Assembly: GCA_017617395.1 (NCBI GenBank)
Contig: JAFZWG010000085.1
Span: 1 to 32,214, forward strand
DNA: 32,214 bases
From: Lachnospiraceae bacterium
Lineage (GTDB): Bacteria > Bacillota > Clostridia > Lachnospirales > Lachnospiraceae
Reading direction: 5' to 3'
Shown here: positions 1-29,372 of the stretch, piece after piece
How positions within the stretch are numbered: position 1 is the first letter of the stretch
Layout of the letters: every line of letters starts with the position of its first letter
The notes under the pieces: model-generated
The model's database searches: none
What the model saw: the letters and a program-made list of their open reading frames with translations, nothing else
Told to the model about the DNA's origin: nothing
Made by a program: the position numbers and the translations under genes

Positions 1-337
1 CGAAAACCTGTCGGAGAACGAGTGGATCTCGTTTGACGGCTTCGGCACGTGGTCCGGTGATTTTGTTGTGGGCGTAGCGTATCGCATAGGCAAGGACGGT
101 CCGAGCTTTGTGTACGAAAACATGAAGGTGGACACGGTGATCCTTGCAAGCAATCCGAGCATGCTTCCGATCCGGACGCTTACGACGACCGGGCGGGACA
201 TCGGATTTGCTGTCTGGGTGGTGCTGTGGTTTGCGATTCCGATCGGATATTACCTGCTCATGTTGAGAGCGAGAAAGAAAGCCTCGTCGATGGAACCCGA
301 GGCGATGGAGACAGCGGAAAATGGCGATTTATCTTGA
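1..337 (+). CDS. C-terminal part of an unrecognised membrane protein (5' end outside window)
   Basis: The frame is open from base 2 to a stop at 335-337, so only the last ~111 residues are present; the real start lies upstream of the window. The visible part has an extracytoplasmic-looking stretch rich in Gly, Ser and Thr, then one hydrophobic segment (FAVWVVLWFAIPIGYYLLML) followed by basic residues RARKK and a short acidic tail. That is the pattern of a protein anchored at its C-terminus with the tail in the cytoplasm. It overlaps the start of the cysteine desulfurase gene by 17 bases, so the two are probably co-transcribed and translationally coupled. I do not recognise the family and propose no function. 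Confidence 0.75.
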   Translation, partial: ENLSENEWISFDGFGTWSGDFVVGVAYRIGKDGPSFVYENMKVDTVILASNPSMLPIRTLTTTGRDIGFAVWVVLWFAIPIGYYLLMLRARKKASSMEPEAMETAENGDLS

Positions 338-1517
338 CAATGCAGCTTCGATGAAGACGCGCGCGGAGGCTTTGGCGGCAGCGATGCCGTATCTGGCGGA
401 GGAGTACGGGAATCCGTCCTCCCTGCACTCGCCGGGGTTGTCCGCGAAGAAGGCGATCCAGAAGGCGAGAGAGGACATCGCGACGTGTCTGTGGTGCAAG
501 CCGAGCGAGATTGTATTTACCTCGGGCGGAACGGAGAGCGACAACCTGGCGATCAAGGGATACTTTGAGGCCAATTGCGCCAGAGGGAAGCATATCATCA
601 CCACGAACATCGAGCATCACGCGGTCGGCGGGAGCATTGCGTGGCTTCGCGGCATGGGGGCGGAGGTGACGGTTCTTCCGGTGAACGGCGACGGGCTGGT
701 CAGCGCTTCGCAGGTCGCGGCGGCCATCCGGCCGGACACGATCCTGATCGCGATCCAGTTCGCGAACAACGAGATCGGAACGATTCAGCCGGTCGCGGAG
801 ATTGCGGCGGTTGCGAAGGAGAGAGGGGTAGCATTTTTCACGGACGCGGTGCAGGCGGTCGGACATGTGCCGTTTGCTCTGGGAAGTTCCGAGGGAGCGG
901 GCAAGCTTCCTCCGGGGGATACGCCCTACAACTATCAAGGAATTGCGATGCTCGCGGGCTCCGCGCACAAGTTCGGCGGGCCGAAGGGTACGGGCTTTTT
1001 GTTCGTTCGCGAGGGAACGAAAATTGCGCCGCAGATGCACGGCGGACCGCAGGAGATGCGGCTTCGCGCAGGTACGGAAAATGTCGCCGGCATCGTCGGC
1101 ATGGCGGCCGCGTTGGTGGTTTCCTGCAGGGAATTGCGGGAGTCCTCGCGGCGTGTGCGTGCGCTCGGAAATATGATGATCGACCGGATTACGGCGGAGA
1201 TTCCCGATGTGAGAGTAAACGGCAGCAGAGTCAGCCGGCTTGCGGGAAATGTGAGCGTCTCCTTTGCGGGAGTCGAGGCGGCCTCGGTGCTTGTGCTGAT
1301 GGACATGGCGGGCATTGCCTGCTCGGGCGGCTCGGCGTGCACGTCGGCTTCGGGAGAGGTGTCGCATGTGATCCGCGCAATCGGTGTTCCGGCAGAGTAC
1401 GAGAAGGGAACGGTCCGCATGACCATCTCTTCAGAGACGACGCAGGCCGAGGTCGACGCGGCAGTGACCGCGCTCGCGGGAGTGGTCGCAAAGCTTCGTG
1501 CGGGAAGAAACTATTGA
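321..1517 (+). CDS. Cysteine desulfurase, NifS/IscS family
   Basis: A PLP-dependent enzyme that takes sulfur from L-cysteine, leaving alanine and a persulfide used for Fe-S clusters, tRNA thiolation or other sulfur carriers. The 398 residues show the family signatures: the N-terminal YLDNAA, the TSGGTESDN loop, IEHHAV, the FANNEIGT block, the PLP lysine K217 in SAHKFGGPKG, and the sulfur-accepting Cys340 in SGGSACTSASG. A stretch at about residues 187-205, rich in Gly and Pro, lies between VQAVGH and SAHK and is ~16 residues longer than in ordinary IscS. The start overlaps the preceding gene by 17 bases. No iscU or thiI neighbour is visible, so the acceptor is unknown; the suf genes of this window lie 20 kb away. 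Family sure, pathway role open. Confidence 0.95.
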   Translation: MAIYLDNAASMKTRAEALAAAMPYLAEEYGNPSSLHSPGLSAKKAIQKAREDIATCLWCKPSEIVFTSGGTESDNLAIKGYFEANCARGKHIITTNIEHHAVGGSIAWLRGMGAEVTVLPVNGDGLVSASQVAAAIRPDTILIAIQFANNEIGTIQPVAEIAAVAKERGVAFFTDAVQAVGHVPFALGSSEGAGKLPPGDTPYNYQGIAMLAGSAHKFGGPKGTGFLFVREGTKIAPQMHGGPQEMRLRAGTENVAGIVGMAAALVVSCRELRESSRRVRALGNMMIDRITAEIPDVRVNGSRVSRLAGNVSVSFAGVEAASVLVLMDMAGIACSGGSACTSASGEVSHVIRAIGVPAEYEKGTVRMTISSETTQAEVDAAVTALAGVVAKLRAGRNY

Positions 1518-1532
1518 TATTTACAAGAAAAA

Positions 1533-1570: not shown

Positions 1571-1588
1571 TGCTTGAAGATTTAACTC

Positions 1589-5384: not shown

Positions 5385-6715
5385 GTGTAAAGAGTATTGA
5401 GCGCCGCCTCTGCAGCGGCTTCTATGATATGGCATGGCTGAACCTTGCGGCCGGCATCGAGAACCTGCCGGATGCAGAGGATTCGGAAAATGCATCCGCC
5501 GAAGCGCTCCGCGGCGAGTGGCTGTCGGTGGCTTTGCCGGTTGCGAAGACGCTTGCCGGAGAGGAAGCAGACGACCTGGCTGCGGGCACGGAGAAACTCC
5601 TGGCGCTTCGCGAGAGGATCGCGGCGTCGGTCGAGGCACTGGCGAGATGCCGTGCCGAGGCGACGGTTTTGCGCAAGGCACTCGCAAGGCGCGCGGCCGG
5701 CGAGAAGACCGTGGTGCCCGTGGATACGGACGATGAGGTTAGAAGCTTACTGGCACGCATCTTCGCGGGCAACGACCCGATGATGATGAACCTGCGGGTG
5801 CAGTCGATGGTTTCTGCATTTCCCGCACGAATCACGAAGAAACGTTTTTATGATATGATCGCCGGATACCTGTCGCTGTACAACGGCCAGGAGGACGGTT
5901 ACGGACTGGAGTCCTTCTGTTACCGCATCCGCTCCGCGGCGGCAATCGGCGAGGATGTCGGCGTCACGGACGAGGCGGTTTCGGAGGCAAAAGCCGTTCT
6001 GGCGAAGGCCTCGGAGCTTGCGGTTTCGGAGGCAACGGACGGCGCGGAGGAGATGAGCGAAACGCTTGATCGGCTCTGCGGAACGCTCGATGCGAACATC
6101 GGTCTTTGCGAGAGCATCGTCCGGTGCATCAACCCGATGGCGGCGATCGGCATCTTAAGCGGTGTTCAGGAGGATCTGGCGAAGGATTCCTCGGTGGAGA
6201 AGGAGCTCTGTCCGGCGGTTTTGGCGCAGCTTTCGCGCGCGGCCGGCGAGGAGGTTGACGAAGCTTCGTACGAGCGCCTCGCGGCAGCGGCGCACGACGC
6301 GATGGAGAGGTTCTTCGAGCCGCTTTCGGTGATGACCGAGCAGGAGACGGGACGGCTGCAGTCCGCGATCGACGCGATGGACGACGAGACGGCAGCGGCG
6401 TACATCCCCGTGATGAAGGCGGCGAGACTCATGTCCACGTCTGCATTTGCCTCGCTCTCGGAGGAAGTGTCGCCGAAGGTTACGCCGGAGCAGGTGGACG
6501 CGTGCCGCGACGAGCTGTATGCGCAGCTTGAGGCGCGGTTCGAGGGACTTCCGAAGTCCCTGGTAAGAGAATGGATGGCATCGGTACTCTCGGAGCTTCC
6601 CGTGTGGTTTGAGAACCGCTCCGAGGTGATGGAATACATGCTTGCGGCGCTCCGCGGATGCCGTACGGACGGCGAGCGCAGATATGCGATTTCGGAGCTT
6701 CGCAAGTCGCTGTAA
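5381..6715 (+). CDS. Unrecognised 444-residue helical protein
   Basis: I do not recognise this family. The start overlaps the stop of the rhomboid-like gene by four bases (ATGA), so the two are translationally coupled. The product is acidic and rich in Ala, Glu and Leu, predicted almost entirely helical, with no signal peptide, no membrane segment and no obvious catalytic motif. The N-terminus (MSVKSIERRLCSGFYDMAW) and the block ITKKRFYDMIAGYLSLYNG near residues 151-169 look like the most conserved-type parts. Base composition and codon use match its neighbours, so there is no sign of recent transfer. A cytoplasmic role linked to the membrane protein upstream is a guess from coupling only. 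Confidence 0.7.
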   Translation: MSVKSIERRLCSGFYDMAWLNLAAGIENLPDAEDSENASAEALRGEWLSVALPVAKTLAGEEADDLAAGTEKLLALRERIAASVEALARCRAEATVLRKALARRAAGEKTVVPVDTDDEVRSLLARIFAGNDPMMMNLRVQSMVSAFPARITKKRFYDMIAGYLSLYNGQEDGYGLESFCYRIRSAAAIGEDVGVTDEAVSEAKAVLAKASELAVSEATDGAEEMSETLDRLCGTLDANIGLCESIVRCINPMAAIGILSGVQEDLAKDSSVEKELCPAVLAQLSRAAGEEVDEASYERLAAAAHDAMERFFEPLSVMTEQETGRLQSAIDAMDDETAAAYIPVMKAARLMSTSAFASLSEEVSPKVTPEQVDACRDELYAQLEARFEGLPKSLVREWMASVLSELPVWFENRSEVMEYMLAALRGCRTDGERRYAISELRKSL

Positions 6716-7083: not shown

Positions 7084-8160
7084 ATGGGAGTCGTTTGGCT
7101 TGTGTTGAAAATCATAGGAATCACCCTCCTGTGCATTCTCGGGCTGGTGCTCCTTGTGCTTGCGTTAGTGCTGTTCGTTCCGATCCGCTACCGACTGGAA
7201 GGGAGCATCCGATCAAAACAGGACTTCGAGGGCACGGTTCAGGTGCATTGGCTGCTGCGCGCCTTCAATCTGCGCTTTGATATCGAAAGCCCGTTGAAGG
7301 TTCGAAAGAAGATGCGCATCCTGTGGCTGTTCGGCCGCAAGGGCGACGGTGTTGTCTATCCGTCGGAGGACGAAGACGAGGAGTCGGAAGATGAAACCGC
7401 CTCCGAGGAAGAATCCGAAAAGAAAGAGGACGCCGCGGATAAAGAGGATGCTTCGAAGAAAGAAGACAGCGCCGCGGAAACCGTTGCCGGAAACAAACCG
7501 GCGGAGACGGTAGCCGAGACAGCGCCTAAGGACGATACGAAAGAAGAGAAGGAAGAGGAAAAGGCAGAGGAGAAGCCGGCAGAGAAGCCTGCGGAGAAAC
7601 CTGCCGACAAGCCCGAGGAGGCGAAGGAAGAGCCGCCGGCGGACGAAAAACCGAAGAAGAAATCATTTTCCGAGAGGATCGAGGAGAAGATCGAGGGCGT
7701 GAAAGAGACATTTGCATGCGTCGCGGAGCTCTTCTCGAGGAAGAAAGGCCTGTTGGAAAGATACATAAAGAAACCTTCCACGAAGGCGGCGGTTGCAAAG
7801 CTCTGGAAGACGGTGCTGTGGTTACTCAAACACATCGCGCCGAGGAAGGGGCACGCCGAGCTTACATTCGGCATGAAGAACCCCGAGACGACCGGCAAGA
7901 TCTTCGCCGGGGCGGCGGTGTTGTATCCGTGGTACTGGAAGCACATCGATGTGGAGCCGGACTTCGGAGGCGAGACACTCCGGGGCGAGGGAATGCTCAA
8001 GGGCCGGATCCGGTTGTTCGGCATTGTCATCCGGGCGCTGGGGCTTTTGATCGACAAGAACATCAAGAAGATGCGCAAGGAGTTTACGAAGGTTAAGGAC
8101 AGCATGACCGCGACGCCGGGCGAGCTCAAAAAGATTGTCAAAAAGGATGAAGCGGCGTAA
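7084..8160 (+). CDS. DUF2953 (YtfI-like) membrane protein with long charged linker
   Basis: The 358-residue protein starts with a hydrophobic segment (residues 5-37), followed by VPIRYRLEG and a beta-type region typical of the DUF2953 N-terminus. Residues ~94-200 are a low-complexity linker dominated by Glu, Lys, Asp, Ala and Pro, including tandem AEKP/ADKP units. The C-terminal part (about 225-340) carries the DUF2953 signature region with GHAELTFGMKNPETTGK and LRGEGMLKGRIRLFG. In B. subtilis the related ytfI lies next to ytfJ (gerW), and the same pairing occurs here, 70 bases apart. That suggests a role in sporulation or germination, but the biochemical function is not known. The linker is unusually long. 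Confidence 0.85.
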   Translation: MGVVWLVLKIIGITLLCILGLVLLVLALVLFVPIRYRLEGSIRSKQDFEGTVQVHWLLRAFNLRFDIESPLKVRKKMRILWLFGRKGDGVVYPSEDEDEESEDETASEEESEKKEDAADKEDASKKEDSAAETVAGNKPAETVAETAPKDDTKEEKEEEKAEEKPAEKPAEKPADKPEEAKEEPPADEKPKKKSFSERIEEKIEGVKETFACVAELFSRKKGLLERYIKKPSTKAAVAKLWKTVLWLLKHIAPRKGHAELTFGMKNPETTGKIFAGAAVLYPWYWKHIDVEPDFGGETLRGEGMLKGRIRLFGIVIRALGLLIDKNIKKMRKEFTKVKDSMTATPGELKKIVKKDEAA

Positions 8161-8692: not shown

Positions 8693-8721
8693 TTGCATTT
8701 TCCGAACAAGTTTGATATTAT
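8693..8721 (+). promoter_or_regulatory. SigA-type promoter of rpmB
   Basis: TTGCAT (8693-8698), 17 bases, TATTAT (8716-8721). The -35 runs into TTTTCCG and so overlaps a copy of the recurrent GGAAAATG/CATTTTCC octamer (8696-8703). The rpmB start follows 48 bases after the -10. Confidence 0.75.
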
Positions 8722-9578: not shown

Positions 9579-11240
9579 GTGGCGTTGCAAACAGTGGACG
9601 CAGCACTGATGCGCAAGATGTTTCTTGCGGGTGCGAAGAATCTGGAGTCCAAGAAGGAAATCATTAACGAGTTGAATGTTTTCCCGGTGCCGGACGGCGA
9701 TACCGGAACGAATATGACATTGACGATCCTCTCGGCGGTCAAGGAAGTAAATGCCGCAGACGGTTCGATGAAGGCTCTGGCCAAGGCAATGTCTTCGGGT
9801 TCGCTGAAGGGTGCGCGCGGTAACTCCGGCGTTATTCTTTCGCAGCTGTTGCGTGGTTTTTCCAAGGTTGTTCGCGAGCATGAGGTCATTACGATTCCGA
9901 TTGCGGCGGAGAGCTTTGCACGTGCCGTTGATACGGCGTACAATGCGGTTATGAAGCCGAAGGAGGGCACCATCTTAACGGTTGCCCGTGCCGGTGCGGA
10001 GCGTGCTGCGGAGCTCGCGGGAAGCTGCACGGACTTCGAGGAGTTTACGACGCAGGTTGTCAAGAGAATGCAGGAGGCTCTCGATTATACGCCCGAGCTT
10101 CTGCCCGTACTCAAGGAAGCCGGTGTGGTTGACTCCGGCGGAACGGGTCTTCTCGAGGTGATGAAGGGCGGTCTCGACTGCATGCTCGGCAAGGAGATCG
10201 ATTACTCCTTCGAAGAGTCCGAGAGTGCCACTGCGGAGAAGAAGCCCGGCGGCGCAGGTTCGACGGACATTTCTACCGCAGACATCAAGTTCGGTTATTG
10301 CACGGAATTTATCATCATGCTGAATCGCGAGTTTTCGCTCGCCGACGAGGCATCCTTCAAGGCTTTCCTTTCCTCCATCGGCGATTCGATCGTCTGCGTG
10401 GCGGATGACGGCGTCGTGAAGGTACATGTACATACGAATGATCCGGGTCTTGCTCTTCAGCGTGCGCTCACGTTCGGACAGCTGTCCCGCATCAAGATCG
10501 ACAACATGCGCGAGGAGCACAACGAGCGCGTGATCATGAGCGAAGAGAAGGCTGCCGAGCCGGCGAAACCGGTGGAGCGCAAGCCGTTCGGCTTTGTCTC
10601 GGTGTCGATCGGTGACGGAATGAACGCCATTTTCCGCGAGCTCGGCGTCGACTACCTCATCGAGGGCGGTCAGACGATGAACCCGAGCACGGAGGACATG
10701 CTCAAGGCGGTTGACGCCGTTGAGGCGAACACGGTGTTCATCCTTCCGAACAACAAGAATATCATCCTTGCCGCTGAGCAGGCCAAGAGCCTTGTCGAGG
10801 ACAAGGAGATCATCGTCATCCCGACCAAGACGGTGCCGCAGGGCATCAGCGCGGTCATCGCGTTCAACCCGGAGGTTTCCGCGGACGAGAACCGCGAGGC
10901 GATGACGGAAGCGTTGTCCTACGTCAAGAGCGGTCAGGTCACCTACGCGGTGCGTGACACAAGCTTCGAGGGACACGAGATTCACGAGTCCGACATCATG
11001 GGTATCTCCGATCACGGTATTGTGGCGGTCGGTCAGGACATCGACGACACGACGCTTGCGATGATCGAGACGATGATGGACGACGACGCAGGGCTTCTCA
11101 GCATCTACTACGGCAGCGATGTGACGGAAGAGCAGGCACAGGGCCTTGCGGATCGTTTCTCCGAGAAATTCCCGCTGGTGGACGTTGAGGTCCACAACGG
11201 CGGACAGCCGATTTACTACTACGTTGTATCGGTGGAGTGA
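9579..11240 (+). CDS. fakA: FakA/YloV-type DAK2-domain protein, fatty acid kinase
   Basis: FakA is the ATP-binding subunit that phosphorylates fatty acids carried by a FakB (DegV-family) partner, so that host or recycled fatty acids enter phospholipid synthesis. The 553-residue length fits. The DhaL/DAK2 domain fills about residues 10-200, with the Mg-ATP aspartates in VFPVPDGDTGTNM and the GARGNSGVILSQ and DSGGTGLL loops; a middle domain follows, with FGYCTEFII and VKVHVHTNDPG; the C-terminal part (from ~330) is the family domain thought to contact FakB. The start is GTG at 9579 with AAGGAGG before it. No fakB lies in the window. The family is sure; the substrate rests on characterised relatives. 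Confidence 0.92.
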   Translation: MALQTVDAALMRKMFLAGAKNLESKKEIINELNVFPVPDGDTGTNMTLTILSAVKEVNAADGSMKALAKAMSSGSLKGARGNSGVILSQLLRGFSKVVREHEVITIPIAAESFARAVDTAYNAVMKPKEGTILTVARAGAERAAELAGSCTDFEEFTTQVVKRMQEALDYTPELLPVLKEAGVVDSGGTGLLEVMKGGLDCMLGKEIDYSFEESESATAEKKPGGAGSTDISTADIKFGYCTEFIIMLNREFSLADEASFKAFLSSIGDSIVCVADDGVVKVHVHTNDPGLALQRALTFGQLSRIKIDNMREEHNERVIMSEEKAAEPAKPVERKPFGFVSVSIGDGMNAIFRELGVDYLIEGGQTMNPSTEDMLKAVDAVEANTVFILPNNKNIILAAEQAKSLVEDKEIIVIPTKTVPQGISAVIAFNPEVSADENREAMTEALSYVKSGQVTYAVRDTSFEGHEIHESDIMGISDHGIVAVGQDIDDTTLAMIETMMDDDAGLLSIYYGSDVTEEQAQGLADRFSEKFPLVDVEVHNGGQPIYYYVVSVE

Positions 11241-11340: not shown

Positions 11341-13356
11341 ATGGAGACGAGGGAAGCGCTCACAAAATTAAAGGGTGTCGGTCCGAAGACGGCCGAGGCA
11401 TTTCACCGCTTGCGGATCGATACGGTCGGCGAGCTTCTTTCGTATCTGCCGAGACGCTACGAGATGTATGCGCCTGAGGTGCCGATCGCATCGCTTACGG
11501 AGGGCCGCACGGCGACGGTTTTGGGCACGTTTGCGAACCTTCCCGGTGTTGTCCGGACCTCGCGGGGAAGCCTCTTAACGGGAAAGTTTCGCGATGCCTC
11601 GGGCACGATCACGGTGCGGTGGTTCAACCGCCCCTACCTTCGGAAAATGATCTCAGTCGCCAAGTACGTTCTCCTTCGCGGTCGTGTTGCGAGAGACCGC
11701 AGGGAGCGGTATCTGCTGCAGCCGGAGATGTACACGCCCGAGCAGTACCGCGAGCTGATGAAGACGCTTCGGCCGGTGTACGGCCTGACCTCGGGACTGA
11801 CGACCAATGCGATCGCCAAGGCGGTTCGCGCGGCGCTTGACAACTGCGAGATACGGGAGAAGATTCCGGCGACGGTCCTTAAGGATACGGGGCTGATGCG
11901 GATCAAAGACGCGCTGGAGGAAGCGCATTTTCCGAAGAACGAGGAGACGACGAGGGAGGCGATGCGCCGTCTGGCGTTCGATGAATTTTTCGGCTTTTTG
12001 CTGTCGGTAAGGAACCTTCGCGAGCAGACGGAGACGCTTCCGAACACAAGTCCGGTGGCGTGCAGCGGGTTTGCGAACAGACTGATCGAGAGCCTTCCGT
12101 ATGAGCTCACGGGCGCGCAGAAGCGCGCGTGGGGCGAGATTGCGGCGGACCTTCGCGGGAACCACCCGATGCAGCGTTTGCTGCAGGGCGACGTCGGCTC
12201 GGGCAAGACCGTGATTGCGGAGCTGGTGCTCGCATCGTCGGCGGAGGCCGGGTATCAGGCGTGTCTGATGGTGCCGACGGAAGTGCTTGCGAAGCAGCAT
12301 TTTGCAGAGCTGTCGAAGCGGCTCGGCGCGCTCGGCATCACAGTAGGACTTTTGACGGGCTCTACGACGGCGGCACAGAGAAGAGAAATCCTCGCGGGTG
12401 CGGTGTCCGGAGAGCTTCAGGTGCTGGTCGGAACGCACGCGCTGTTCCAGGAGGGCGTTTCGTTTGCGCACCTCGGTGCGGTCGTTGTCGATGAGCAGCA
12501 CCGCTTCGGCGTCGAGCAGCGAAGGGCGCTGTCGGACAAGGGCAGCACGCCGCACGTTCTTTTGATGAGCGCGACACCGATTCCCAGAACGCTTGCGATG
12601 ATGCTGTACGCGGATCTCGACATCTCGATTCTTGACGAGATGCCCGCGAACCGGAAGAAGATCAAGACCGCCGTTGTGGACGCGGGGTACCGCCCGAAGG
12701 CGTATCATTTCTTAGCGGAACACATTGCGGCAGGGGAGCAGGCGTATGTGATCTGCCCGCTGATCGAGGCGAGCGACGGGCTCGATGCGGAAAATGTGGA
12801 GGACTACGCGGAGTGCCTCTCGGAGGAGCTTCCGGATGCGCGAATCGCGACGCTGCACGGGCGCATGAGCGCGAAGGAGAAAACGGCTGTGATGGAGGCT
12901 TTCGCGCGCAGGGAGACCGACATTCTGGTGAGCACCACGGTCATCGAGGTCGGCATCGACGTTGCGAACGCAACCGTGATCATGATCGAGGATGCCGAGC
13001 GGTTCGGTCTTGCACAACTGCACCAGCTGCGCGGCCGTGTCGGACGAGGCGAGAAACAGTCGTATTGCATCCTCGTGCAGGGCAACGATTCCGCGGACGC
13101 GAAGGAGCGACTTTCGGTGCTGCAGACGGCCACCGACGGCTATGCGATCGCGGAGAAGGACCTGTCCCTTCGAGGACCGGGAGATTTCTTCGGAATCCGC
13201 CAGAGCGGCGAGGATATCTTCCGCATTGCGGACCCTATCCGGGACGCGGATATTCTGGGGATGGCGAAGCGCGCAGTGACGTCGCTAAGCGCCTCGGAAT
13301 ATGCGAAGGCAGTGAAGCAATGTCTTGCGGAAACGAAGGAGTCTGTGGTATACTGA
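11341..13356 (+). CDS. recG: ATP-dependent DNA helicase RecG
   Basis: RecG reverses stalled replication forks and drives branch migration of Holliday junctions and D-loops. The 671-residue protein begins with a helix-hairpin-helix-like GVGPKTAEAF, continues with the OB-type wedge domain (ASLTEGRTATVLGTF through VRWFNRPYL), then the helicase core: Walker A GDVGSGKT (residues 283-290), DEQHRFG (384-390) as the DEAH-box equivalent, SATPIPRTLAM as motif III, VSTTVIEVGIDVANA, and QLHQLRGRVGRG as motif VI. The DEQHRFG and FFGIRQSG blocks are diagnostic of RecG. It follows fakA as in many Firmicutes, but a terminator lies between them. Start ATG at 11341. Confidence 0.97.
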   Translation: METREALTKLKGVGPKTAEAFHRLRIDTVGELLSYLPRRYEMYAPEVPIASLTEGRTATVLGTFANLPGVVRTSRGSLLTGKFRDASGTITVRWFNRPYLRKMISVAKYVLLRGRVARDRRERYLLQPEMYTPEQYRELMKTLRPVYGLTSGLTTNAIAKAVRAALDNCEIREKIPATVLKDTGLMRIKDALEEAHFPKNEETTREAMRRLAFDEFFGFLLSVRNLREQTETLPNTSPVACSGFANRLIESLPYELTGAQKRAWGEIAADLRGNHPMQRLLQGDVGSGKTVIAELVLASSAEAGYQACLMVPTEVLAKQHFAELSKRLGALGITVGLLTGSTTAAQRREILAGAVSGELQVLVGTHALFQEGVSFAHLGAVVVDEQHRFGVEQRRALSDKGSTPHVLLMSATPIPRTLAMMLYADLDISILDEMPANRKKIKTAVVDAGYRPKAYHFLAEHIAAGEQAYVICPLIEASDGLDAENVEDYAECLSEELPDARIATLHGRMSAKEKTAVMEAFARRETDILVSTTVIEVGIDVANATVIMIEDAERFGLAQLHQLRGRVGRGEKQSYCILVQGNDSADAKERLSVLQTATDGYAIAEKDLSLRGPGDFFGIRQSGEDIFRIADPIRDADILGMAKRAVTSLSASEYAKAVKQCLAETKESVVY

Positions 13357-14407: not shown

Positions 14408-14450
14408 CGCATCCGGATCGTTAGAACAAAGGTGATTGTTGGGAGGTCAC

Positions 14451-16613
14451 ATGCTGGGGTTAATCTACATTTGCTTAAATCTGTTGACAGGATTTGTCAT
14501 CTGCTCGCTGGCGCTTCCGAAGCATGCGGCGTTTACGAGACGCACGTATCTTGGGGAGAAGACGTCGGTGATGCCGGCATTGCTGTGCCTTCCGCTGTGG
14601 TATATCGTCGGTGCGTTTTTGATGACGTGGGCGACGTATTTAACGGCATACCTTGCGTCGATGTGCGGCGCGAAGGAGCCTCTCGGGATCGCGAACATTG
14701 TTGTGATGCTCGTGTTCGCGGTGTTCGATGCCTGCGGGACGTATTACCTGTATCAGAAGAAGCGTCTTCGCCGCATCGGAGCCTATCTCAGTAAAGTCAA
14801 TACGGGCGAGGTTGTGTTCGCCTGCATCACATTTTTCTTCTGTGCCTTTTTGATGTGGTGGACGTTCTCGTACCAGAACGGCCAGTACCGCGTCGGCTAC
14901 AGCGTATTCAGCGATTTCGCGCCGCATCTCGGCATGATCCGCTCGTTCACGAGAGGCGATAATTTCCCGACATACTACTCGCATTTTGCGGGAGAGGACA
15001 TCAAATACCACTTCCTGTTCCAGTTTATGGTCGGCAACCTCGAGTATCTCGGGCTGCGCCTCGACTGGGCGTTCAACCTGCCGAGCACGATCTGCTTCGC
15101 GGGCGCGTTCTGGCTTTTGTATGTGCTCTCGGTCAAGCTGACCGGCAAGCGTGCGGTCGGTTATGTTGCGGCGGCGCTGTTCGCGTTCCGAAGCAGCGAT
15201 GCGGTGTTCGATTTCTTTGCAAAGCCCTCGCAGAAGCTGATTTACGGAGTTGAACAGAAGAACCTTTCGAAGACCATCTGGAAGGCGTTCCGGGAAAATG
15301 AGGAGTTCATCGGAACGACGACGCACGAGGACTGGGGCCTTTGGAATTTAAATGTGTATTGTAACCAGCGCCATCTGGCCATCGGCCTGTGCGCGCTGTT
15401 GATCGCGGTTTTGTTCCTCCTGCCGCTTGTGTTTGCGGCCGTGGCGCGCGTGAAGGAAGCGGTTGCAAAGAAAGAGGAGGAGCTTCGCGCGGACGATCCG
15501 AACCTGAAGCTGTTCTTCATCGAGAAGGTCGGGTACGCCATCCGGTTCTCCGTCTTTGAGGGCGAGGGCTGGATGCCCGAGAGCTGGGTTCGCCCGGTCG
15601 TTGTGGGACTGTTGCTCGGAATGTGCAGTTTCTTTAACGGCGCGTGCGTCATCGGATGTATGTGCGTGTTGTTTTTGCTTGCATTTGTCGCGGATCATCG
15701 CGTCGAATATGCGCTCACGGCGCTGTTGACGGTAGGCCTTACGCTTCTGGCGACCAAGTTCTTTATCAACGGCTCGGTGGTGGAGACGAAGTACTACTTC
15801 GGATTTCTCGCGGATCTTCGCACGTTCGCGGGCGTTTGGGAGTACATTATGACACTGTGCGGCATCCTGCCGTTTGTACTGCTCGCAGGGTTCCTTCTCG
15901 CTGACGGCTGCCGCAAATGGATCTGGGTTGCGTTCGCGGCTCCGTTCGTCTTCGCGTTTACAATCTCGCTGACCATCGACGTCACCGTGAACCACAAGTA
16001 CATTATGATGAGCCTGATGCTTCTCGCGATTCCCGCGGCAAGTTTTCTGGTGTGGCTTTACGAGCGCGTCGGCGCATGGCCGAAGATCGTGGCCATCGGA
16101 CTGTTGTTCGTGCTGACCGCGACCGGTCTTTACGACCTTCGCACCGTGGTCCGCAAAAACGACATCCGCCAGGGTCGCTACCTGGCATTCCGGGAGGATG
16201 ATCCGATCACGAACTGGGTGATGGAAAATGCAACCTCGCAGGACATTTTCCTCACACCGTACTATTCGCTCAACAATTTTGTCATGGGCGGCGCGATGTT
16301 GTACTACGGCTGGCCGTACTACGCCTGGTCCGCAGGCTACAACACGGAGTACCGCAACATGAAGGTGAAGGAGATGTACGAAGCGTCGACCCCGTGGGAA
16401 CTGATCTCCTTGGTCAGCGAGAACAACATCCGTTATATCGTTGTGGACAGCGAGGCCAGAAACTCGAAGGAATATGACCTCCATGACGGCATCATTGCCA
16501 TCACGTACCAGGCGGTGTTTGAGTCCGGCGGTACGGTGATCTACGACACGACCAAACCGTTCAATTACAATCCCGATGATGTCCAGGGCGACGAGAATAC
16601 GTCTGCGGACTGA
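14451..16613 (+). CDS. Multi-span membrane protein, GT-C glycosyltransferase-like
   Basis: The 720-residue product has more than ten hydrophobic segments over residues 1-570 and a soluble C-terminal domain (about 570-720). An early loop (about 152-195) carries SDFAPHLGMIRSF with Asp155 and His159, then GEDIKYHFLFQF. This matches in position and pattern the loop of the second membrane protein of this block (EGINYYYIGQF), so the two look like distant relatives. GT-C enzymes transfer sugar from a polyprenyl-phosphate donor on the outer face of the membrane; the adjacent GT2 could supply the donor. The start was taken at the ATG at 14451, which has GGGAGG at 14441-14446; a TTG at 14436 is the alternative. 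Acceptor and sugar are unknown. Confidence 0.75.
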   Translation: MLGLIYICLNLLTGFVICSLALPKHAAFTRRTYLGEKTSVMPALLCLPLWYIVGAFLMTWATYLTAYLASMCGAKEPLGIANIVVMLVFAVFDACGTYYLYQKKRLRRIGAYLSKVNTGEVVFACITFFFCAFLMWWTFSYQNGQYRVGYSVFSDFAPHLGMIRSFTRGDNFPTYYSHFAGEDIKYHFLFQFMVGNLEYLGLRLDWAFNLPSTICFAGAFWLLYVLSVKLTGKRAVGYVAAALFAFRSSDAVFDFFAKPSQKLIYGVEQKNLSKTIWKAFRENEEFIGTTTHEDWGLWNLNVYCNQRHLAIGLCALLIAVLFLLPLVFAAVARVKEAVAKKEEELRADDPNLKLFFIEKVGYAIRFSVFEGEGWMPESWVRPVVVGLLLGMCSFFNGACVIGCMCVLFLLAFVADHRVEYALTALLTVGLTLLATKFFINGSVVETKYYFGFLADLRTFAGVWEYIMTLCGILPFVLLAGFLLADGCRKWIWVAFAAPFVFAFTISLTIDVTVNHKYIMMSLMLLAIPAASFLVWLYERVGAWPKIVAIGLLFVLTATGLYDLRTVVRKNDIRQGRYLAFREDDPITNWVMENATSQDIFLTPYYSLNNFVMGGAMLYYGWPYYAWSAGYNTEYRNMKVKEMYEASTPWELISLVSENNIRYIVVDSEARNSKEYDLHDGIIAITYQAVFESGGTVIYDTTKPFNYNPDDVQGDENTSAD

Positions 16614-20076: not shown

Positions 20077-21363
20077 TTATTCGGGCATCTCGCGAACGGG
20101 CATTTCCTCGGGCTTGCACGGAAGCGTTACGCGGATTCTGTCGATGCGGTTTTTATCGACCGCCAGAACCTCATAGACAACGCCGTCCTCGTCGGTGACC
20201 GATTCGCCCTCGGCAGGAATGTGCTCCAAAAGCTGGTAGATGTGGCCCGCGATCGAGTCGTAATCATCGGATGCAAGCATAAGGCCGGTGGCCTCGCTGA
20301 CATCCTCAAGTTTCGCGGAACCGTCGATTAAAAACTCGGTGTCGGAGACGCGCTCGATCGGGTCCTGCTCGTCCTGGTCGTACTCGTCGCGGATCTCGCC
20401 GACGATCTCCTCGAGGAGGTCCTCCAGGGTGATGATGCCGGCCGTTGCGCCGTACTCATCGAGGACAACCGCAATCGTGACCGACTCGCGCCGAAGCTCG
20501 GTAAGAAGGTCCGCAGTCTTTTTGAACTCGTAGGTAAAGAACGGCTTTCGCATCAGTTTGCGGACGTCAAAGTCCTCCTTGCGGCCGTCGTAGTGGAAGA
20601 GGTCCTTCAGAAACAGGATGCCGACCACGTTGTCCTGCGTCGTCTCGAAAACCGGGAGACGGGAGTAGTTGTTGGCGCGGAAGGCTTCCGCAATCTCGTC
20701 GTAGGACATGTCGGTGCTCGCAAAATCGACGTCGATGCGGGGAACCATGACATCCTTGGCGACGGAATCGCCGAAATCCACCACGTTGTTGATCATCTCT
20801 TTTTCTTCATTTTCCAACACACCGTCCTCATGGCTCGCCTCGACGAACGTCAGAAGCTCATCCTCGGTCACGGTTTCGCGCTTCTTCGGGTCGATGCGGA
20901 AGATGCGAAGGATCGTGTTGGAGAAGAGGTTGATTAAGAAAATGAACGGCGTCATGCACCAGGTGTACACAGAAACAATACCGGAGTACGCCATGGCGAA
21001 CCGGTCACTGTACAGCGATGCGATTGTCTTCGGGATGATTTCGCCGAAAATGATGACAATGAACGTGAGAACGCCCGTTGCCACGGAGAGATACGTCCGA
21101 CCCCAGAGGCGCTGCGCGAAGACCGAAGTCAAGGCGGAAGCCGTGAGGTTGACGACGTTGTTGCCGATGAGGATCGCAGAGAGAACCTTTGCCTGGTTCT
21201 CCATCAAAAGCATTACGCGCTTGGCCGCTCTGCGAGTGTCCGCGAGGCTTCGCATCTTCATGCGGTTGACGGACATCAAAGCCGTCTCCGCCGATGAGAA
21301 AAATGCGGACAGAAGTAAGAGAATAAGAATAATAATCAATTGCAGCCGTGAGGCAGGGTCCAA
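20077..21363 (-). CDS. CNNM/HlyC-CorC family membrane protein with CBS pair
   Basis: The family exports or regulates divalent cations, in particular Mg2+, in bacteria (CorC, MpfA) and animals (CNNM). The 428-residue protein shows the order DUF21 membrane domain (residues ~1-185, with SAFFSSAETALMSVN, GNNVVN and FGEIIPKT), a CBS pair (~205-330, starting VAKDVMVPRIDVDF and with YSRLPVFE and DEYGATAGIITLEDLLEEIVGEI), and the C-terminal CorC/HlyC domain (~345-425). It starts at TTG on the minus strand (21363-21361), with AAGGAG about 12 bases upstream, the only sensible start before the first membrane segment. It is divergent from sufC. The old name hemolysin for the family is misleading. Confidence 0.92.
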   Translation of the reverse strand: MDPASRLQLIIILILLLLSAFFSSAETALMSVNRMKMRSLADTRRAAKRVMLLMENQAKVLSAILIGNNVVNLTASALTSVFAQRLWGRTYLSVATGVLTFIVIIFGEIIPKTIASLYSDRFAMAYSGIVSVYTWCMTPFIFLINLFSNTILRIFRIDPKKRETVTEDELLTFVEASHEDGVLENEEKEMINNVVDFGDSVAKDVMVPRIDVDFASTDMSYDEIAEAFRANNYSRLPVFETTQDNVVGILFLKDLFHYDGRKEDFDVRKLMRKPFFTYEFKKTADLLTELRRESVTIAVVLDEYGATAGIITLEDLLEEIVGEIRDEYDQDEQDPIERVSDTEFLIDGSAKLEDVSEATGLMLASDDYDSIAGHIYQLLEHIPAEGESVTDEDGVVYEVLAVDKNRIDRIRVTLPCKPEEMPVREMPE

Positions 21364-23231: not shown

Positions 23232-24146
23232 ATGAAGAAAAGAGTATTACAGTTTCTGCCAAAGCGTCTGTTCGCGCTGATGATTGCCGCAGTGATCGTA
23301 TTCTCTGCGGCCGGATGTCAGCCGGGCGGGGGCGAGAAAAATGCAACCCTGACGCCGACGCCTTCGACGGCGCCCGCTGCGACCGGCTGCGAGGTGCACA
23401 TCCTTGCGATCGGCAAGGCAGATGCGATTTTTATCACGGTCGACGGCAAGACAATGCTGATCGACGCCGGATATCCGGAAAATGCAGATACAGTCATTTC
23501 GTATCTGCGCAGTCAGTCGGTCACGAAGCTTGACTACGTGATCTTAACGCACGGCGACCGCGACCACGTGGGCGGAATGCCTGCGGTTCTTCGGGAATTT
23601 TCCGTCGGGCAGATGCTGATCTCCCCGAAGAAGGAGAAGTCCGACCAGTATCAGGAGATGATCTCGATCATTCAGAGCAAGAGCATCCCGTGCGTCTCCC
23701 CGGAGGTCGGCACGACGTACGAGCTCGGCGGCGCGACGTTTCAGGTGCTTGCACCGGGACCGAAGGCTTTGAAGGAAGGCTCGGACAATGATGCTTCGAT
23801 CGCGATCCGGCTTGTGTACGGCGCGCGCAGTTTCCTGTTGATGGGCGATGCGCTCTCGACGACCGAGAAGGAGCTTGTCGACTCGTCCTACACAATCCGC
23901 TCGGACGTTTTGAAGGTCGGTCACCACGGAAAGAGCGATGCGACGAACAAGAAGTTTCTTAAGGCGGTGCAGCCGAAATACGCGGCGATCTGTTGCGGCG
24001 AGACCGTGGACGGAGAGGACGGTTTCCCGGCAAACAAGGTCATTGAGCTGTTGACGGACTTCCATGTGACGACGTACCGGACCGACAACGACGGAACGAT
24101 CATTTTCCGAACGGACGGAACGACGTTGACGTGCAACTGTGATTAA
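23232..24146 (+). CDS. Lipoprotein with ComEC/Rec2-like metallo-beta-lactamase domain
   Basis: The 304-residue product begins with a signal peptide ending in a lipobox at Cys29 (SAAGC), then a short Thr/Pro linker (TLTPTPSTAPAATG), then an MBL-fold domain from about residue 53. The metal motif is THGDRDHVGG (H107, D109, D111, H112); further motifs are LMGDALS and VLKVGHHGKSDAT, the form seen in the periplasmic MBL domain of ComEC and related lipoproteins. It would be a metal-dependent hydrolase on the outside of the membrane; nuclease or phosphodiesterase activity is possible from relatives, none is proven. It starts 9 bases after the SufB-like gene and overlaps nothing; operonic co-transcription is likely, functional linkage to Suf is not implied. 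Confidence 0.88.
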   Translation: MKKRVLQFLPKRLFALMIAAVIVFSAAGCQPGGGEKNATLTPTPSTAPAATGCEVHILAIGKADAIFITVDGKTMLIDAGYPENADTVISYLRSQSVTKLDYVILTHGDRDHVGGMPAVLREFSVGQMLISPKKEKSDQYQEMISIIQSKSIPCVSPEVGTTYELGGATFQVLAPGPKALKEGSDNDASIAIRLVYGARSFLLMGDALSTTEKELVDSSYTIRSDVLKVGHHGKSDATNKKFLKAVQPKYAAICCGETVDGEDGFPANKVIELLTDFHVTTYRTDNDGTIIFRTDGTTLTCNCD

Positions 24147-24165
24147 CCCCGAAAAGGAGGGCAAT

Positions 24166-24570
24166 ATGGATCGTAAGCGATTGTTGGCGGAAGCGGCGAA
24201 AGCCAGAGAGAACAGTTATTGCCCGCACTCGGGATTTGCCGTCGGCGCGGCGCTTTTGTGCAAGGACGGCGAGATCTTCCGCGGCTGCAATGTGGAAAAT
24301 GCATCCTACGGCGTGACGAACTGTGCGGAGCGCACGGCGTTGTTCTCGGCGGTTGCGAACGGACGGAAGAGGGGCGATTTTGCGGCGATTGCCGTTGTCG
24401 GAGGACCGAAGGACGGGGAGCTTGCAGCGAGCCCGCCGTGCGGTGTCTGCCGGCAGGCATTGTCCGAGTTTGTCGATTCGGAAACGTTTGTTGTCCTCTG
24501 GGCGACCGGCGCGGATTCGTACGAGGAGCACACGCTCGCGGAGCTGCTGCCGTACGGCTTTTCGCTGTGA
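24166..24570 (+). CDS. cdd: Cytidine deaminase
   Basis: It deaminates cytidine and deoxycytidine to uridine and deoxyuridine in pyrimidine salvage. The 134-residue protein has the small homotetrameric form: PHSGFAVGAALL, CNVENASYG for ribose binding, zinc ligand Cys53 and catalytic Glu55 in NCAERTA, and Cys92 and Cys95 in PPCGVCRQ. An AAGGAGG at 24154-24160 fixes the ATG at 24166, although the frame continues to a GTG at 24139 inside the previous gene. The gap to the upstream gene is 19 bases, so it is probably the last gene of the suf operon. Confidence 0.95.
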   Translation: MDRKRLLAEAAKARENSYCPHSGFAVGAALLCKDGEIFRGCNVENASYGVTNCAERTALFSAVANGRKRGDFAAIAVVGGPKDGELAASPPCGVCRQALSEFVDSETFVVLWATGADSYEEHTLAELLPYGFSL

Positions 24571-26553: not shown

Positions 26554-26590
26554 CGGAAAATGAAGGGCCGTTTTGCGGCGGCATTTTCCG
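26554..26590 (+). repeat. Inverted pair of the GGAAAATG octamer in the ispF leader
   Basis: CGGAAAATG (26554-26562) and its exact complement CATTTTCCG (26582-26590) flank 19 bases. The transcribed leader of ispF can therefore form a nine-pair hairpin. There is no T-run after it, so it is not an ordinary terminator. Confidence 0.7.
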
Positions 26591-26632
26591 GGCGGAAGAC
26601 GCGGTGTGCCGCGAATCGGAAGGGAGCAGTTC

Positions 26633-27175
26633 ATGAGAATCGGAACGGGATATGACGTGCACCGGCTGGTCGAGGGCAGACCGCTTGTTCTCGGCGGCGT
26701 GACGGTGCCTTACGATAAAGGACTTTTGGGACACTCGGACGCGGATGTTTTGCTGCATGCAATCTCCGATGCGATCCTGGGTGCGGCAGCTCTGGGGGAT
26801 ATCGGGCTGCATTTTCCGGACAATGATCCGGCGTACGAGGGGATCGATTCGCGGATTCTTCTTCGGAAGGTCGGCGAGCTGGTCGCGGAGCAGTGTTACG
26901 TGATCGCGAACGTCGATGCGACGATCATCGCACAGCGGCCGAAATTGCGGGACTACATCAACGAGATGCGCGCCAACATCGCAGAGGATCTGCAGATCAC
27001 GATTGGGCAGGTGAACGTGAAGGCGACGACCGAGGAGGGCCTTGGTTTTACGGGCGCCGGCGAGGGAATCGCGGCACAGGCCGTGTGCCTGCTGGAGCCG
27101 ATGGTGCCGTACACGGAAGTGACGTACGGAAACGCCTGCGGGAGCTGTGAGGGCTGTCCGGGCTGCCGGCAGTAG
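26633..27175 (+). CDS. ispF: 2-C-methyl-D-erythritol 2,4-cyclodiphosphate synthase, with Cys-rich tail
   Basis: IspF converts CDP-methylerythritol 2-phosphate to methylerythritol cyclodiphosphate, a step of the non-mevalonate isoprenoid pathway. Zinc ligands are Asp8 and His10 in GYDVHRL and His42 in [22 protein letters not shown], and the CDP-binding [21 protein letters not shown] are all present. The core ends near residue 158; 22 extra residues follow, ending in Cys169, Cys172, Cys175 and Cys178 ([15 protein letters not shown]), a CxxCxxCxxC pattern foreign to the family core. The ATG at 26633 has AGGGAG before it; the frame extends to 26573 without support. tex follows 46 bases later. Confidence 0.95.
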
Positions 27176-27221
27176 CGAAAACGCCGGTTAATGAGGAAAA
27201 TTACGAGAAGGAATGAATCAC

Positions 27222-29372
27222 ATGACGATTGCACAGACGATTGCGAAGGAATTGAACATCAAGGTGACGCAGGTGGAAGCCGCGATCACGCTGATCGATG
27301 AGGGAAACACGATCCCGTTCATCGCGAGATACCGCAAGGAGGCGACCGGAATGCTCAACGACGAGCAGCTCCGTGACTTAAACGAGCGGCTTACGTACCT
27401 TCGCAACCTTGACGATAAGAAGAAACAGGTGCTCGCGACGATCGAGGAGCAGGGGAAGCTCACGGATGAGCTCCGCGCGGCGATCGAGGCGGCGACCACG
27501 ATGGTGGCGGTGGAGGATCTGTATCGCCCGTACCGCCCGAAGCGGCGCACGCGCGCGACCGACGCGAAGGAGAAGGGCCTCGAGGGTCTTGCGGCCATCC
27601 TCACGATGCAGTACACGGACAAGCCGATGGAGGTCGAGGCGCAGGCCTATCTCTCCGAGGAGAAGGGCGTGACGAGCGTGGAGCAGGCGCTTCAGGGCGC
27701 GATGGACATCGTCGCCGAGTCCGTCAGCGACTCCGCGGACTACCGTAACTACATCCGCGGCATTACGTTCAAAAAGGGTATGCTGTATTCAGAGGCGAAG
27801 ACCAAGAGCGAGGAGCCGAGCGTGTACGATATGTACAAGGCATTTTCCTCACCGATCGAGAAGATGAGCGGCTACCGCGTTTTGGCGGTCAACCGCGGCG
27901 AGAACGAGAAGGTCCTCACGGTGCGCATCGAGGCGCCCGAGGAGGACATCCTGCGCTACCTTGAAAAGCAGGTGATCGTGCGCGACAACCCGAACACGAC
28001 GCCGTATTTAAAACTCGCTGTGGCGGATGCGTACCGCCGCCTGATTGCTCCGTCCATCGAGCGTGAGATCCGAAACGAGCTCACGGAAAATGCAGAGGAC
28101 GGCGCCATCAAGGTTTTCGACAAGAACCTGACGCAGCTTCTGATGCAGCCGCCGATCACCGGCAAGGTTGTGCTCGGCTGGGACCCGGCGTTCAGAACCG
28201 GCTGCAAGCTGGCGGTCGTGGATGCGACGGGCAAGGTGCTGTACACGGTTGTCATTTACCCGACGGAGCCGCAGAACAAGATTGCGGAGGCGAAGTCGCT
28301 TCTTAAAAAGATCATCAACCACTTCGGCGTCGAGCTGATCTCGCTCGGAAACGGAACGGCCTCGAGAGAGTCGGAGAAGGTTATCGTAGAGCTGTTGTCG
28401 GAGATTCCGCAGAAGGTTGCGTACGCGATCGTCAACGAGGCGGGCGCGAGCGTCTACTCGGCGAGCAAGCTCGCGACGGAGGAGTTTCCGAAGCTGGATG
28501 TCGGCGCGAGAAGCGCGGCGTCAATCGCCAGACGTCTGCAGGACCCGCTGGCGGAACTTGTCAAGATTGAGCCGCAGGCCATCGGCGTCGGGCAGTACCA
28601 GCACGACATGAATCAAAAGAAACTGGCGGAGAGCCTTACGGGCGTTGTCGAGGACTGCGTAAACCGCGTCGGCGTCGACCTTAACACCGCGAGCGTTTCG
28701 CTTCTCGAGTACGTCTCCGGAATCAACAAGACGCTTGCCAAGAATATTGTCACATACCGCGAGGAGAACGGGCGGTTCAAGAGCCGCAAGGAGCTTCTCA
28801 AGGTCGCCAAATTAGGCCCGAAGGCCTACGAGCAGTGCGCGGGTTTCCTGCGGATCCGCGAGGGCAAGGAGGCGCTTGACAATACGGGCGTGCATCCGGA
28901 GAGCTACGAGGCAGCGTACAAGCTCCTCGACAAGCTCGGCTACACCGCAGCGGACATCACCGCGGGCGGCGCGAAGGGCATGCGCGCAAAAGTGAAGGAC
29001 AAGGCAGCGCTGGCGCGCGAACTGGGCGTCGGCGAGATTACCCTGACGGACATCATCGGGGAGCTCGAGAAGCCCTCGAGAGACCCCCGCGAGGATATGC
29101 CAAAGCCCATTCTTCGAAGCGACGTGCTGGAGCTTAAGGACCTTAAGCCCGGCATGAAGTTGAAGGGGACGGTGCGAAATGTCATTGATTTCGGTGCATT
29201 TGTCGACATCGGCGTGCATCAGGACGGACTCGTTCATGTGAGCGAGCTGTCGGACCGCTTCGTCAAGCATCCGCTGGATGTTGTGAAGATCGGCGATATC
29301 GTCGATGTGCGCGTCTTAAGCGTCGATGAGAAGCGCGGGCGCATTCAGCTCTCGATGAAGAGCGAAAAATAA
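27222..29372 (+). CDS. tex: Tex family RNA-binding transcription accessory protein
   Basis: Tex is a conserved nucleic-acid-binding protein linked to transcription and RNA turnover. The 716 residues follow the family order: N-terminal helical region with VEAAITLIDEGNTIPFIARYRKE and LYRPYRPKRRTRATDAKEKGL, an RNase-H-like YqgF fold at about 310-440 (VVLGWDPAFRTGCKLAVVD, ISLGNGTASRESE), a helix-hairpin-helix pair (VGVDLNTASVSLLEYVSGINKTLAKNIVTYREENG, seen as motifs) and a C-terminal S1 domain (about 635-712, LKGTVRNVIDFGAFVDIGVHQDGLVHVSEL). GAAGGA at 27207-27212 fits ATG 27222; ATG 27213 is too close to it. Promoter not separate; likely read from the ispF promoter. Confidence 0.95.
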   Translation: MTIAQTIAKELNIKVTQVEAAITLIDEGNTIPFIARYRKEATGMLNDEQLRDLNERLTYLRNLDDKKKQVLATIEEQGKLTDELRAAIEAATTMVAVEDLYRPYRPKRRTRATDAKEKGLEGLAAILTMQYTDKPMEVEAQAYLSEEKGVTSVEQALQGAMDIVAESVSDSADYRNYIRGITFKKGMLYSEAKTKSEEPSVYDMYKAFSSPIEKMSGYRVLAVNRGENEKVLTVRIEAPEEDILRYLEKQVIVRDNPNTTPYLKLAVADAYRRLIAPSIEREIRNELTENAEDGAIKVFDKNLTQLLMQPPITGKVVLGWDPAFRTGCKLAVVDATGKVLYTVVIYPTEPQNKIAEAKSLLKKIINHFGVELISLGNGTASRESEKVIVELLSEIPQKVAYAIVNEAGASVYSASKLATEEFPKLDVGARSAASIARRLQDPLAELVKIEPQAIGVGQYQHDMNQKKLAESLTGVVEDCVNRVGVDLNTASVSLLEYVSGINKTLAKNIVTYREENGRFKSRKELLKVAKLGPKAYEQCAGFLRIREGKEALDNTGVHPESYEAAYKLLDKLGYTAADITAGGAKGMRAKVKDKAALARELGVGEITLTDIIGELEKPSRDPREDMPKPILRSDVLELKDLKPGMKLKGTVRNVIDFGAFVDIGVHQDGLVHVSELSDRFVKHPLDVVKIGDIVDVRVLSVDEKRGRIQLSMKSEK

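Follow-up and report, generated by a model that had tools for sequence, protein, structure and literature searches.

Occurrence of the octamer in the window and its genome

A 32,214-nucleotide contig of an uncultured Lachnospiraceae bacterium (JAFZWG010000085.1, assembly GCA_017617395.1; the whole stretch is hereafter called the window) carries the octamer GGAAAATG so often, on both strands, that it raises the question of what keeps one short word so frequent in this DNA. Our answer, which we hold at about an even chance, is that the word would be the core of a genome-wide self-recognition motif on double-stranded DNA, working like a DNA uptake sequence. The window contains 21 copies (11 forward, 10 reverse) where its composition predicts 0.68, making GGAAAATG its most frequent 8-mer, and among these copies 15 extend to CGGAAAATG and 10 to GGAAAATGC. 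The initial annotation of this DNA, which had likened the word to DNA uptake sequences, listed 20 copies against an expected 0.6–1. Its expectation, its strong enrichment, all 11 of its forward starts and its ten longer-form copies (our GGAAAATGC count) agree with these figures; its total does not, as only eight of its nine reverse starts were exact, one being misplaced, and one further copy had been overlooked (Table 1). A maximal-order Markov model built from the window alone predicts 18.3 copies, since the motif itself supplies the sub-words of a sequence this short; low-order models and shuffles are the informative nulls.

The enrichment extends across the window's own metagenome-assembled genome (MAG; G000; 2,341,923 bases in 97 contigs, 85% complete), which holds 1,313 copies (620 forward, 693 reverse); the reversed word occurs 25 times (11 forward, 14 reverse). 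A 192 kb sample of this DNA contained 107 copies, with 7.8 and 9.2 expected from order-2 and order-3 Markov models. The top 8-mer of a 212 kb sample was GGAAAATG (120 observed, 10.1 expected at order 3) and its top 9-mer was CGGAAAATG (74 observed, 4.4 expected). Genome-wide counts against a Markov model, a check that the initial annotation had proposed, thus give an enrichment near or above ten-fold. Among the 22 genomes of the host genus in the set searched, density spans a sixfold range from 99 copies per Mb (G017) to 648 per Mb (G019), with 0.56 per kb in G000 and up to 0.65 per kb in G019. Eleven motif-rich genomes fall in one clade of a Tex protein tree, referred to here as the rich clade.

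Independence from coding and near-balance between replication strands

Genes in the samples were predicted with a purpose-written codon-score script rather than a standard gene finder, and synonymous codons were shuffled within them for 50 rounds. Across the 166 predicted genes of the G000 sample, 53 same-strand and 37 opposite-strand copies of GGAAAATG were observed against 6.8 and 5.1 after shuffling, and 31 and 21 copies of CGGAAAATG against 3.2 and 2.4. Other rich-clade stretches gave 44 and 46 copies against 8.8 and 7.6, and the motif-poor species far smaller differences: 9 and 8 against 7.1 and 3.7 in G006 (17 versus 10.8 in total), and 6 and 3 against 3.0 and 1.7 in G017 (9 versus 4.7). 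Codon and amino-acid usage are therefore refuted as the cause of the excess, since shuffles that preserve both yield about 12 copies where 90 are present. The initial annotation had offered codon bias and context-dependent mutation as its main alternatives; the shuffle eliminates the former, and the latter is unlikely. Its remark that the word imposes GAA AAT on genes that favour GAG AAC is borne out by the codon counts of the G000 predicted genes (GAG 3636 and GAA 1047; AAC 1663 and AAT 730). All codon phases are occupied in G000, with Glu-Asn the commonest (36 of 54 same-strand copies). Outside genes the word is about twice as frequent as expected: in G000 and other rich genomes, 43 of 224 copies do not lie wholly in predicted genes, and non-coding bases make up 9.6%, a preference for non-coding DNA. 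The rich-clade totals of both the shuffle and the non-coding tests include the motif-poor pilus loci described below.

For strand polarity, rich-clade stretches were oriented by GC skew, and 44 of 46 were used (708 kb), two being dropped for weak skew. Leading and lagging copies numbered 160 and 141 (53:47), as against 3,837 and 1,644 (70:30) for the other 8-mers built from three G, four A and one T in the same stretches. The balance between strands that the initial annotation had counted in the window is thus seen, as near-balance, over the oriented stretches as well. The leading share of 53% departs from 75% (p=2e-16) and does not differ from the 58% expected from order-2 and order-3 Markov models of the leading strand (p=0.08 and 0.12). 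G000 alone gave 76:52, below the matched words (70%, p=0.012). These data fit a force acting on double-stranded DNA regardless of replication direction, and they are a misfit for Chi and for FtsK-orienting polar sequences (KOPS). KOPS are likewise short genome-wide words, but they are strand-polarised, whereas GGAAAATG is nearly balanced between strands.

Motif anatomy

The consensus is about CGG(A/C)AAATG(C/A/T), and the word is not its own reverse complement. Flanks of 102 copies were near background beyond a C at position −1 (63%), C or A at +8 (70%) and A at +9 (40%); across 314 rich-clade sites weak biases appeared at many flanking positions, none approaching the strength of the core. Tolerance of single mismatches, examined in 241 kb of G000, was position-specific, with positions 1, 3 and 4 most variable and positions 6 to 8 not variable. 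Position 1 was replaced by A 21, G 10 and T 15 times (1.7–2.9 expected), position 3 by A 46 times (4.2 expected) and position 4 by C 33 times (5.0 expected). The apparent depletion of mismatches at inner positions is weak evidence, because the motif itself raises the counts expected for inner mutants.

Inverted pairs at most 40 bases apart number two in the 212 kb sample, both of them in the window (Table 1). Among eight sample groups, seven of the eight close gaps (at most 48 bases) separate copies of opposite orientation. In G012 (contigs 13, 15 and 21) four opposite pairs at most 40 bases apart occur among the 100 places listed, so this genome may differ from the other samples in this respect.

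Distribution among relatives and sequence dialects

The Tex tree represents one gene and has six open forks; G006 and G012 are absent from it because they gave no full-length Tex match. Within the rich clade G007 has only 269 copies per Mb. G015 groups with G017 in another clade, and G006 joins these two by AddA/AddB identity alone. All three are near background, with 18 copies of CGGAAAATG against 12.7 expected in 377 kb. Intermediate enrichment of CGGAAAATG was found in G001 with G021 (4.7-fold) and in the clade of G008, G016, G018 and G012 (6.2-fold). Among 392 genomes drawn from the order, a draw that included no other member of the genus, none besides the window's own had more than 236 copies of CGGAAAATG. 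The next highest, G414 and G395, share one genus, and a 100 kb sample of G395 held CGGAAAATG at expectation (5 versus 4.9).

Sub-clades favour different variants, so that the motif has lineage-specific dialects. In the rich clade the base after GGAAAATG is preferentially C, A or T; T follows at 34 of 69 sites in the G008/G016/G018/G012 and G001/G021 clades versus 70 of 316 in the rich clade (Fisher p=1e-5). G004 favours GGCAAATG, seen 23 times (4.6 expected, rank 3), and GGAAAATGC, seen 15 times (1.9 expected), and G011 favours GGAAAATGC, seen 10 times (0.7 expected). G411 belongs to a second genus of the family. Among the 9,888 8-mers with five or more occurrences in 120 kb of its DNA, GGCAAATG comes first and GGAAAATG second; this genome is not a random choice, having been taken for its raised count over control in the order draw. 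Its genus-mate G348 (60 kb) has GGCAAATG at rank 7 and GGAAAATG only at rank 352. Neither word was at the top in G395, G316 or G378, which were chosen like G411 for raised counts; G414, chosen likewise, yielded short contigs only, and the G035 sample (18 kb) was too small. For both words the ratio of observed to expected counts lay between 0.8 and 1.6 in the motif-poor trio, G033, G034, G378 and 75 of the 80 named loci; for G395 it was 2.1 and 1.9. Taken together, the genome-wide motif is real, strong and independent of coding, with variants specific to lineages.

Two side observations concern other samples. In 75 loci mostly labelled Lachnospiraceae (L046–L120, 1.22 Mb), GGAAAATG is in mild excess (173 versus 117 expected) and GGCAAATG in deficit (43 versus 57). 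G006 (L126–L130), G017 (L131–L135) and G395 (L276–L280) contain other over-represented 9-mers that chain into one another, for example CCCGCTGAG, TTTCATAGG and CGAGTGAGG, which suggests longer dispersed repeats.

Conservation of sites and background level in two prophages

Window sites aligned to nine rich relatives at 79–84% identity were exact for 24 of 51 copies, with a background of 18–29% for all 8-mers and 5–21% for A-rich control words. Of nine sites aligned to G003, six were exact (all 8-mers 46%); for seven genus members at a greater distance it was 8 of 26 (all 8-mers 7 to 14%). The same few sites recur across relatives, so these counts are not independent cases; they are therefore read as maintenance with turnover.

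The initial annotation had also proposed a comparison of core and accessory DNA, and in one relative, G005, the motif is indeed rare in acquired DNA. Two prophages of this genome contain 5 copies in 60 kb where their own Markov expectation is 4.0 (observed/expected 1.2), as opposed to 82 copies in 160 kb of other G005 DNA where 5.0 are expected (16.4; p=1e-8 for the difference). Terminase, portal, head and tape-measure or tail families, by which the prophages were identified, lie inside these regions. Their limits were drawn by eye from 5 kb bins of motif count and G+C, a choice that favours depletion, and the comparison covers one genome and two prophages. Phage capsid matches were found in two of the 22 genus genomes, of which only G005 is rich, and relaxase matches in two of 22 genomes (14 genus members and eight of the order), neither in the rich clade. 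The G005 prophages (L267–L270, contigs 8 and 9) carry HK97-family capsid genes, and one has a DNA methyltransferase match.

Competence genes and pilins

A match to ComEC was found in 58 of 61 genomes and to DprA in 57 of 61, the window's own genome being included in both, and the G000 ComEC reaches the ComEC_Rec2 equivalog cut-off. G009 has a type IV pilus operon encoding PilT-like and PilC-like proteins, two major-type pilins, a prepilin peptidase, a PilM-like protein and minor pilins; pilins of this operon were read in 16 of the 22 genus members. The question whether competence genes are intact, raised by the initial annotation, therefore has a divided answer: ComEC and DprA are in the host genome itself, and the pilus operon was seen in relatives only, motif-poor species equally among them. 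No association with motif density was seen for presence or absence of ComEC, DprA, PilB/PilT or pilins, which we rejected as its cause.

One minor pilin, 148–174 residues long when mature, has a basic head, with an isoelectric point of at least 8.5 in 13 of 16 genomes (6.9 in G005, 7.6 in G017 and 8.0 in G011). Assignment to the GspH/FimT family (for FimT, see the available part of PMC8897410) was considered and rejected, the likeness being confined to size, charge and a C-terminal G-K/R; its matches to Pfam and PDB profiles run mainly through the N-terminal region. The Pfam profile ComP_DUS matched a major-type pilin at E=0.00038, yet below the curated cut-off, and was not used; only two of 31 major-type pilins match it at E 0.05 or better. 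In G015 (C63:24535-25331), which has low motif density, and in G016 (C57:53707-54488), which is intermediate, different frames hold parts of the ComEC competence domain; this split could reflect gene decay or assembly error.

A putative uptake signal and its alternatives

As an uptake signal, the motif would be bound by a DNA receptor at the cell surface, most likely one of the minor pilins of the type IV pilus; the small minor pilin with the basic head is one candidate for this role. DNA bearing the motif would be pulled in preferentially, handed to ComEC and recombined (for Gram-positive DNA uptake, see the part of PMC12236230 available to us). Copies would accumulate if tagged alleles were imported more often than others, and dialects would arise as the receptor drifts. 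One close likeness is to the DNA uptake sequences (DUS) of Neisseriaceae, recognised by ComP, which, to judge from the accessible part of PMC3630211, share a short asymmetric core, hundreds to more than 1000 copies, little strand preference and lineage-specific variants around a fixed inner core. The present motif differs from them in its Clostridia host, its looser consensus, its want of any excess of close pairs and the rarity of matches to the ComP_DUS profile. The uptake signal sequences (USS) of Pasteurellaceae resemble it in their 9-base core, their presence on both strands and their preference for non-coding DNA, as far as the accessible text of PMC1626085 describes them; here strong AT-rich flanking segments are lacking and perfect copies are fewer than near-matches.

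Several results weigh against uptake as the explanation. The 241 kb of G000 contain 80 perfect and 228 single-mismatch copies, the reverse of the pattern set out for USS and DUS in the available part of PMC1626085, which we took as the yardstick of their traits. The two inverted pairs of the window sit inside a gene and at a gene start and are not terminators, a role described for USS and DUS in the accessible portions of PMC1852404 and PMC2346458. Close gaps of at most 48 bases are not in excess (2 versus 3.2 at random in G000, 2 versus 5.8 in other rich genomes), copies are only marginally more evenly spaced than random (coefficient of variation 0.83 versus 0.95, p=0.052), and the strand split of G000 alone lies above even (p=0.04). 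No DprA match was found in motif-rich G009, nor in poor G015, and the 85%-complete MAG to which the window belongs yielded no pilus operon. Motif-poor G006 and G017 have ComEC, DprA and pilins just as the rich genomes do, and no feature of the genus pilins compared follows motif density cleanly. In seven rich-clade genomes the loci of the type IV pilus (L177–L182, L194 and L195) are four-fold depleted in the motif, with 15 copies in 126 kb versus 304 in 622 kb elsewhere (11.9 versus 48.9 per 100 kb, p=1e-12), and the addAB loci, with 22 copies in 87 kb, have about half the usual density; an uptake model does not simply predict either. What stands of the uptake reading in the initial annotation is the uptake-like behaviour of the word; membership in USS or DUS is not established, given the surplus of single mismatches, the lack of terminators and the presence of the machinery in motif-poor species. 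We do not file the motif with USS or DUS, because two of their listed traits were tested and did not appear and because uptake and receptor lie beyond sequence data, and we refer to it as a putative uptake signal.

The main rival is that GGAAAATG is the Chi site of a diverged AddAB, at which the enzyme would turn from degrading DNA ends to recombination, so that self DNA is told from phage DNA. We judge this unlikely. Like Chi of RecBCD and AddAB, the word is an octamer, genome-wide and rare in prophage, and its depletion in the two G005 prophages would be consistent with Chi too. An AddB match was found in all 61 genomes, including all 22 of the genus (in pieces or in part in G014, G020 and G021), and the enzyme has diverged in the rich clade. 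Main-match scores are 666–735 bits in ten other genus members versus 465–559 in nine of the rich clade, and over 20 genus members (L247–L266) rich-to-other identity is 0.33 for AddB and 0.36 for AddA versus 0.45 among the others, with 0.74 versus 0.76 for Tex. At AddB position 44 (B. subtilis numbering), G011 and each of the ten rich genomes read have N, and the other nine have T or S. This position presumably lies near the Chi pocket. It follows the rich clade, in a way that cannot be told from shared descent, and it is T in G001 and in the G008/G016/G018/G012 clade despite their enrichment in CGGAAAATG of 4.7-fold (with G021) and 6.2-fold. The position of F210, read from an alignment block with B. 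subtilis AddB as reference, does not follow density, being Y in G011 as well as in both rich and poor genomes, and F in six others. The word is also enriched outside genes and has lineage-specific variants, and we know of no Chi with either trait. Of the latch residues named in the accessible part of PMC4824097, E129 is kept and F68 is kept except in G001; AddA has diverged nearly as much as AddB, yet that source places the Chi recognition locus in AddB. Chi fails on polarity: it is polarised to the leading strand (available part of PMC8022716), whereas GGAAAATG divides 53:47 where matched words divide 70:30 and has no leading-strand polarity beyond composition. Were it Chi after all, it would be an unpolarised and very abundant Chi with a fast-evolving AddAB, which would be unexpected as well.

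A doubtful explanation, in our estimate, is that GGAAAATG is the site of another genome-wide DNA protein, such as a nucleoid protein, a HIP1-like orphan methyltransferase or a nuclease that tells self from non-self. The excess of near-matches over perfect copies (228 versus 80) speaks for it, and strand symmetry and prophage depletion fit. Against it, intragenic copies exceed codon expectation more than sevenfold, and many genic sites would therefore each need selection; to our knowledge ordinary DNA-binding proteins do not produce such an intragenic excess. The word is also non-palindromic: cyanobacterial HIP1 is likewise a strongly over-represented octamer, but it is the palindrome GCGATCGC (PMC4390886, in the part available). 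That a codon-pair preference or context-dependent mutation makes the word is very improbable. It would agree with the prevalence of the Glu-Asn phase among same-strand copies in G000 and with the mild excess in the 75 other loci, but not with enrichment on both strands, in all phases and outside genes, with the shortfall of the shuffles, or with three sister species near background. Remnants of a small mobile repeat would be dispersed genome-wide, as the copies are, but we consider this origin next to negligible: on either side of the core, flanking columns fall close to background after a few bases, with weak biases only, and since the flanks add so little information beyond the core, the motif is not a transposon and a mobile repeat is refuted.

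If the motif is instead the putative uptake signal, it would represent sequence-specific uptake with dialects in two or more genera of uncultured Lachnospiraceae, the first case outside Neisseriaceae and Pasteurellaceae and the first in Bacillota, a claim we advance tentatively and at slightly less than an even chance. A 2025 paper names those two families as the only ones with such motifs, and among the titles and abstract openings listed from the open-licence literature there was no earlier report of the word or of uptake sequences in Lachnospiraceae, Clostridia or Firmicutes. Comparable self-recognition tags are known in Haemophilus and Neisseria, and descriptions of such tags are confined to two other bacterial families. 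An independent third case, from a Bacillota family, would show that the tagging of self DNA has arisen more than once and does not depend on an outer membrane. On this reading a DNA tag would mark the boundaries between species in part of the gut flora. With motif-rich, intermediate and motif-poor species side by side in one genus, gain, loss and receptor change are directly testable.

Copies and neighbouring genes in the window

Table 1 Copies of the octamer in the window, with their setting and their state in relatives.
Feature	Position	Strand	Location	Remark
GGAAAATG, form CGGAAAATG	316..323	+	overlaps start of aminotransferase open reading frame at 321	
GGAAAATG	1076..1083	+	within gene 321-1517	
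GGAAAATG	5485..5492	+	within gene 5381-6715	
GGAAAATG	7664..7671	-	within gene 7084-8160	overlooked in the initial annotation
GGAAAATG	8696..8703	-	intergenic by gene prediction	
GGAAAATG	10628..10635	-	within gene 9579-11240	
GGAAAATG	11642..11649	+	within recG-like gene 11341-13356	
GGAAAATG	11926..11933	-	within recG-like gene 11341-13356	given as 11936 in the initial annotation
GGAAAATG	12789..12796	+	within recG-like gene 11341-13356	
GGAAAATG	15293..15300	+	within gene 14436-16613	
Inverted pair, GGAAAATG (16223) and CATTTTCC (16244)	16223..16251		within gene 14436-16613	
GGAAAATG	20808..20815	-	within gene 20077-21363	exact in G014, G005 and G010
GGAAAATG	23477..23484	+	metallo-beta-lactamase-fold gene 23232-24146	inexact in G014, G005 and G010
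GGAAAATG	24101..24108	-	within gene 23232-24146	inexact in G014, G005 and G010
GGAAAATG	24294..24301	+	gene 24139-24570	exact in G014 and G005, one base off in G010
Inverted pair, GGAAAATG (26555) and CATTTTCC (26582)	26555..26589		first copy intergenic, second at start of gene 26573-27175	
GGAAAATG	26810..26817	-	within gene 26573-27175	exact in G014, G005 and G010
GGAAAATG	27841..27848	-	tex-like gene 27213-29372	exact in G005 and G010, not in G014
GGAAAATG	28085..28092	+	tex-like gene 27213-29372	exact in G014, G005 and G010

The best matches of the Tex-like protein are to records labelled Lachnospiraceae: an uncultured Lachnoclostridium MAG (95%), a goat omasum MAG (91%) and a horse faeces MAG (78%). 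Chloroflexota, a host suggested by the DUF2298 protein noted below, was rejected in view of the matches at 91–95%. The RecG-like protein has an N-terminal helix-hairpin-helix match. Positions 17386-19974 encode an 862-residue DUF2298 membrane protein, a family associated with phyla other than that of Lachnospiraceae, here in a Lachnospiraceae genome.

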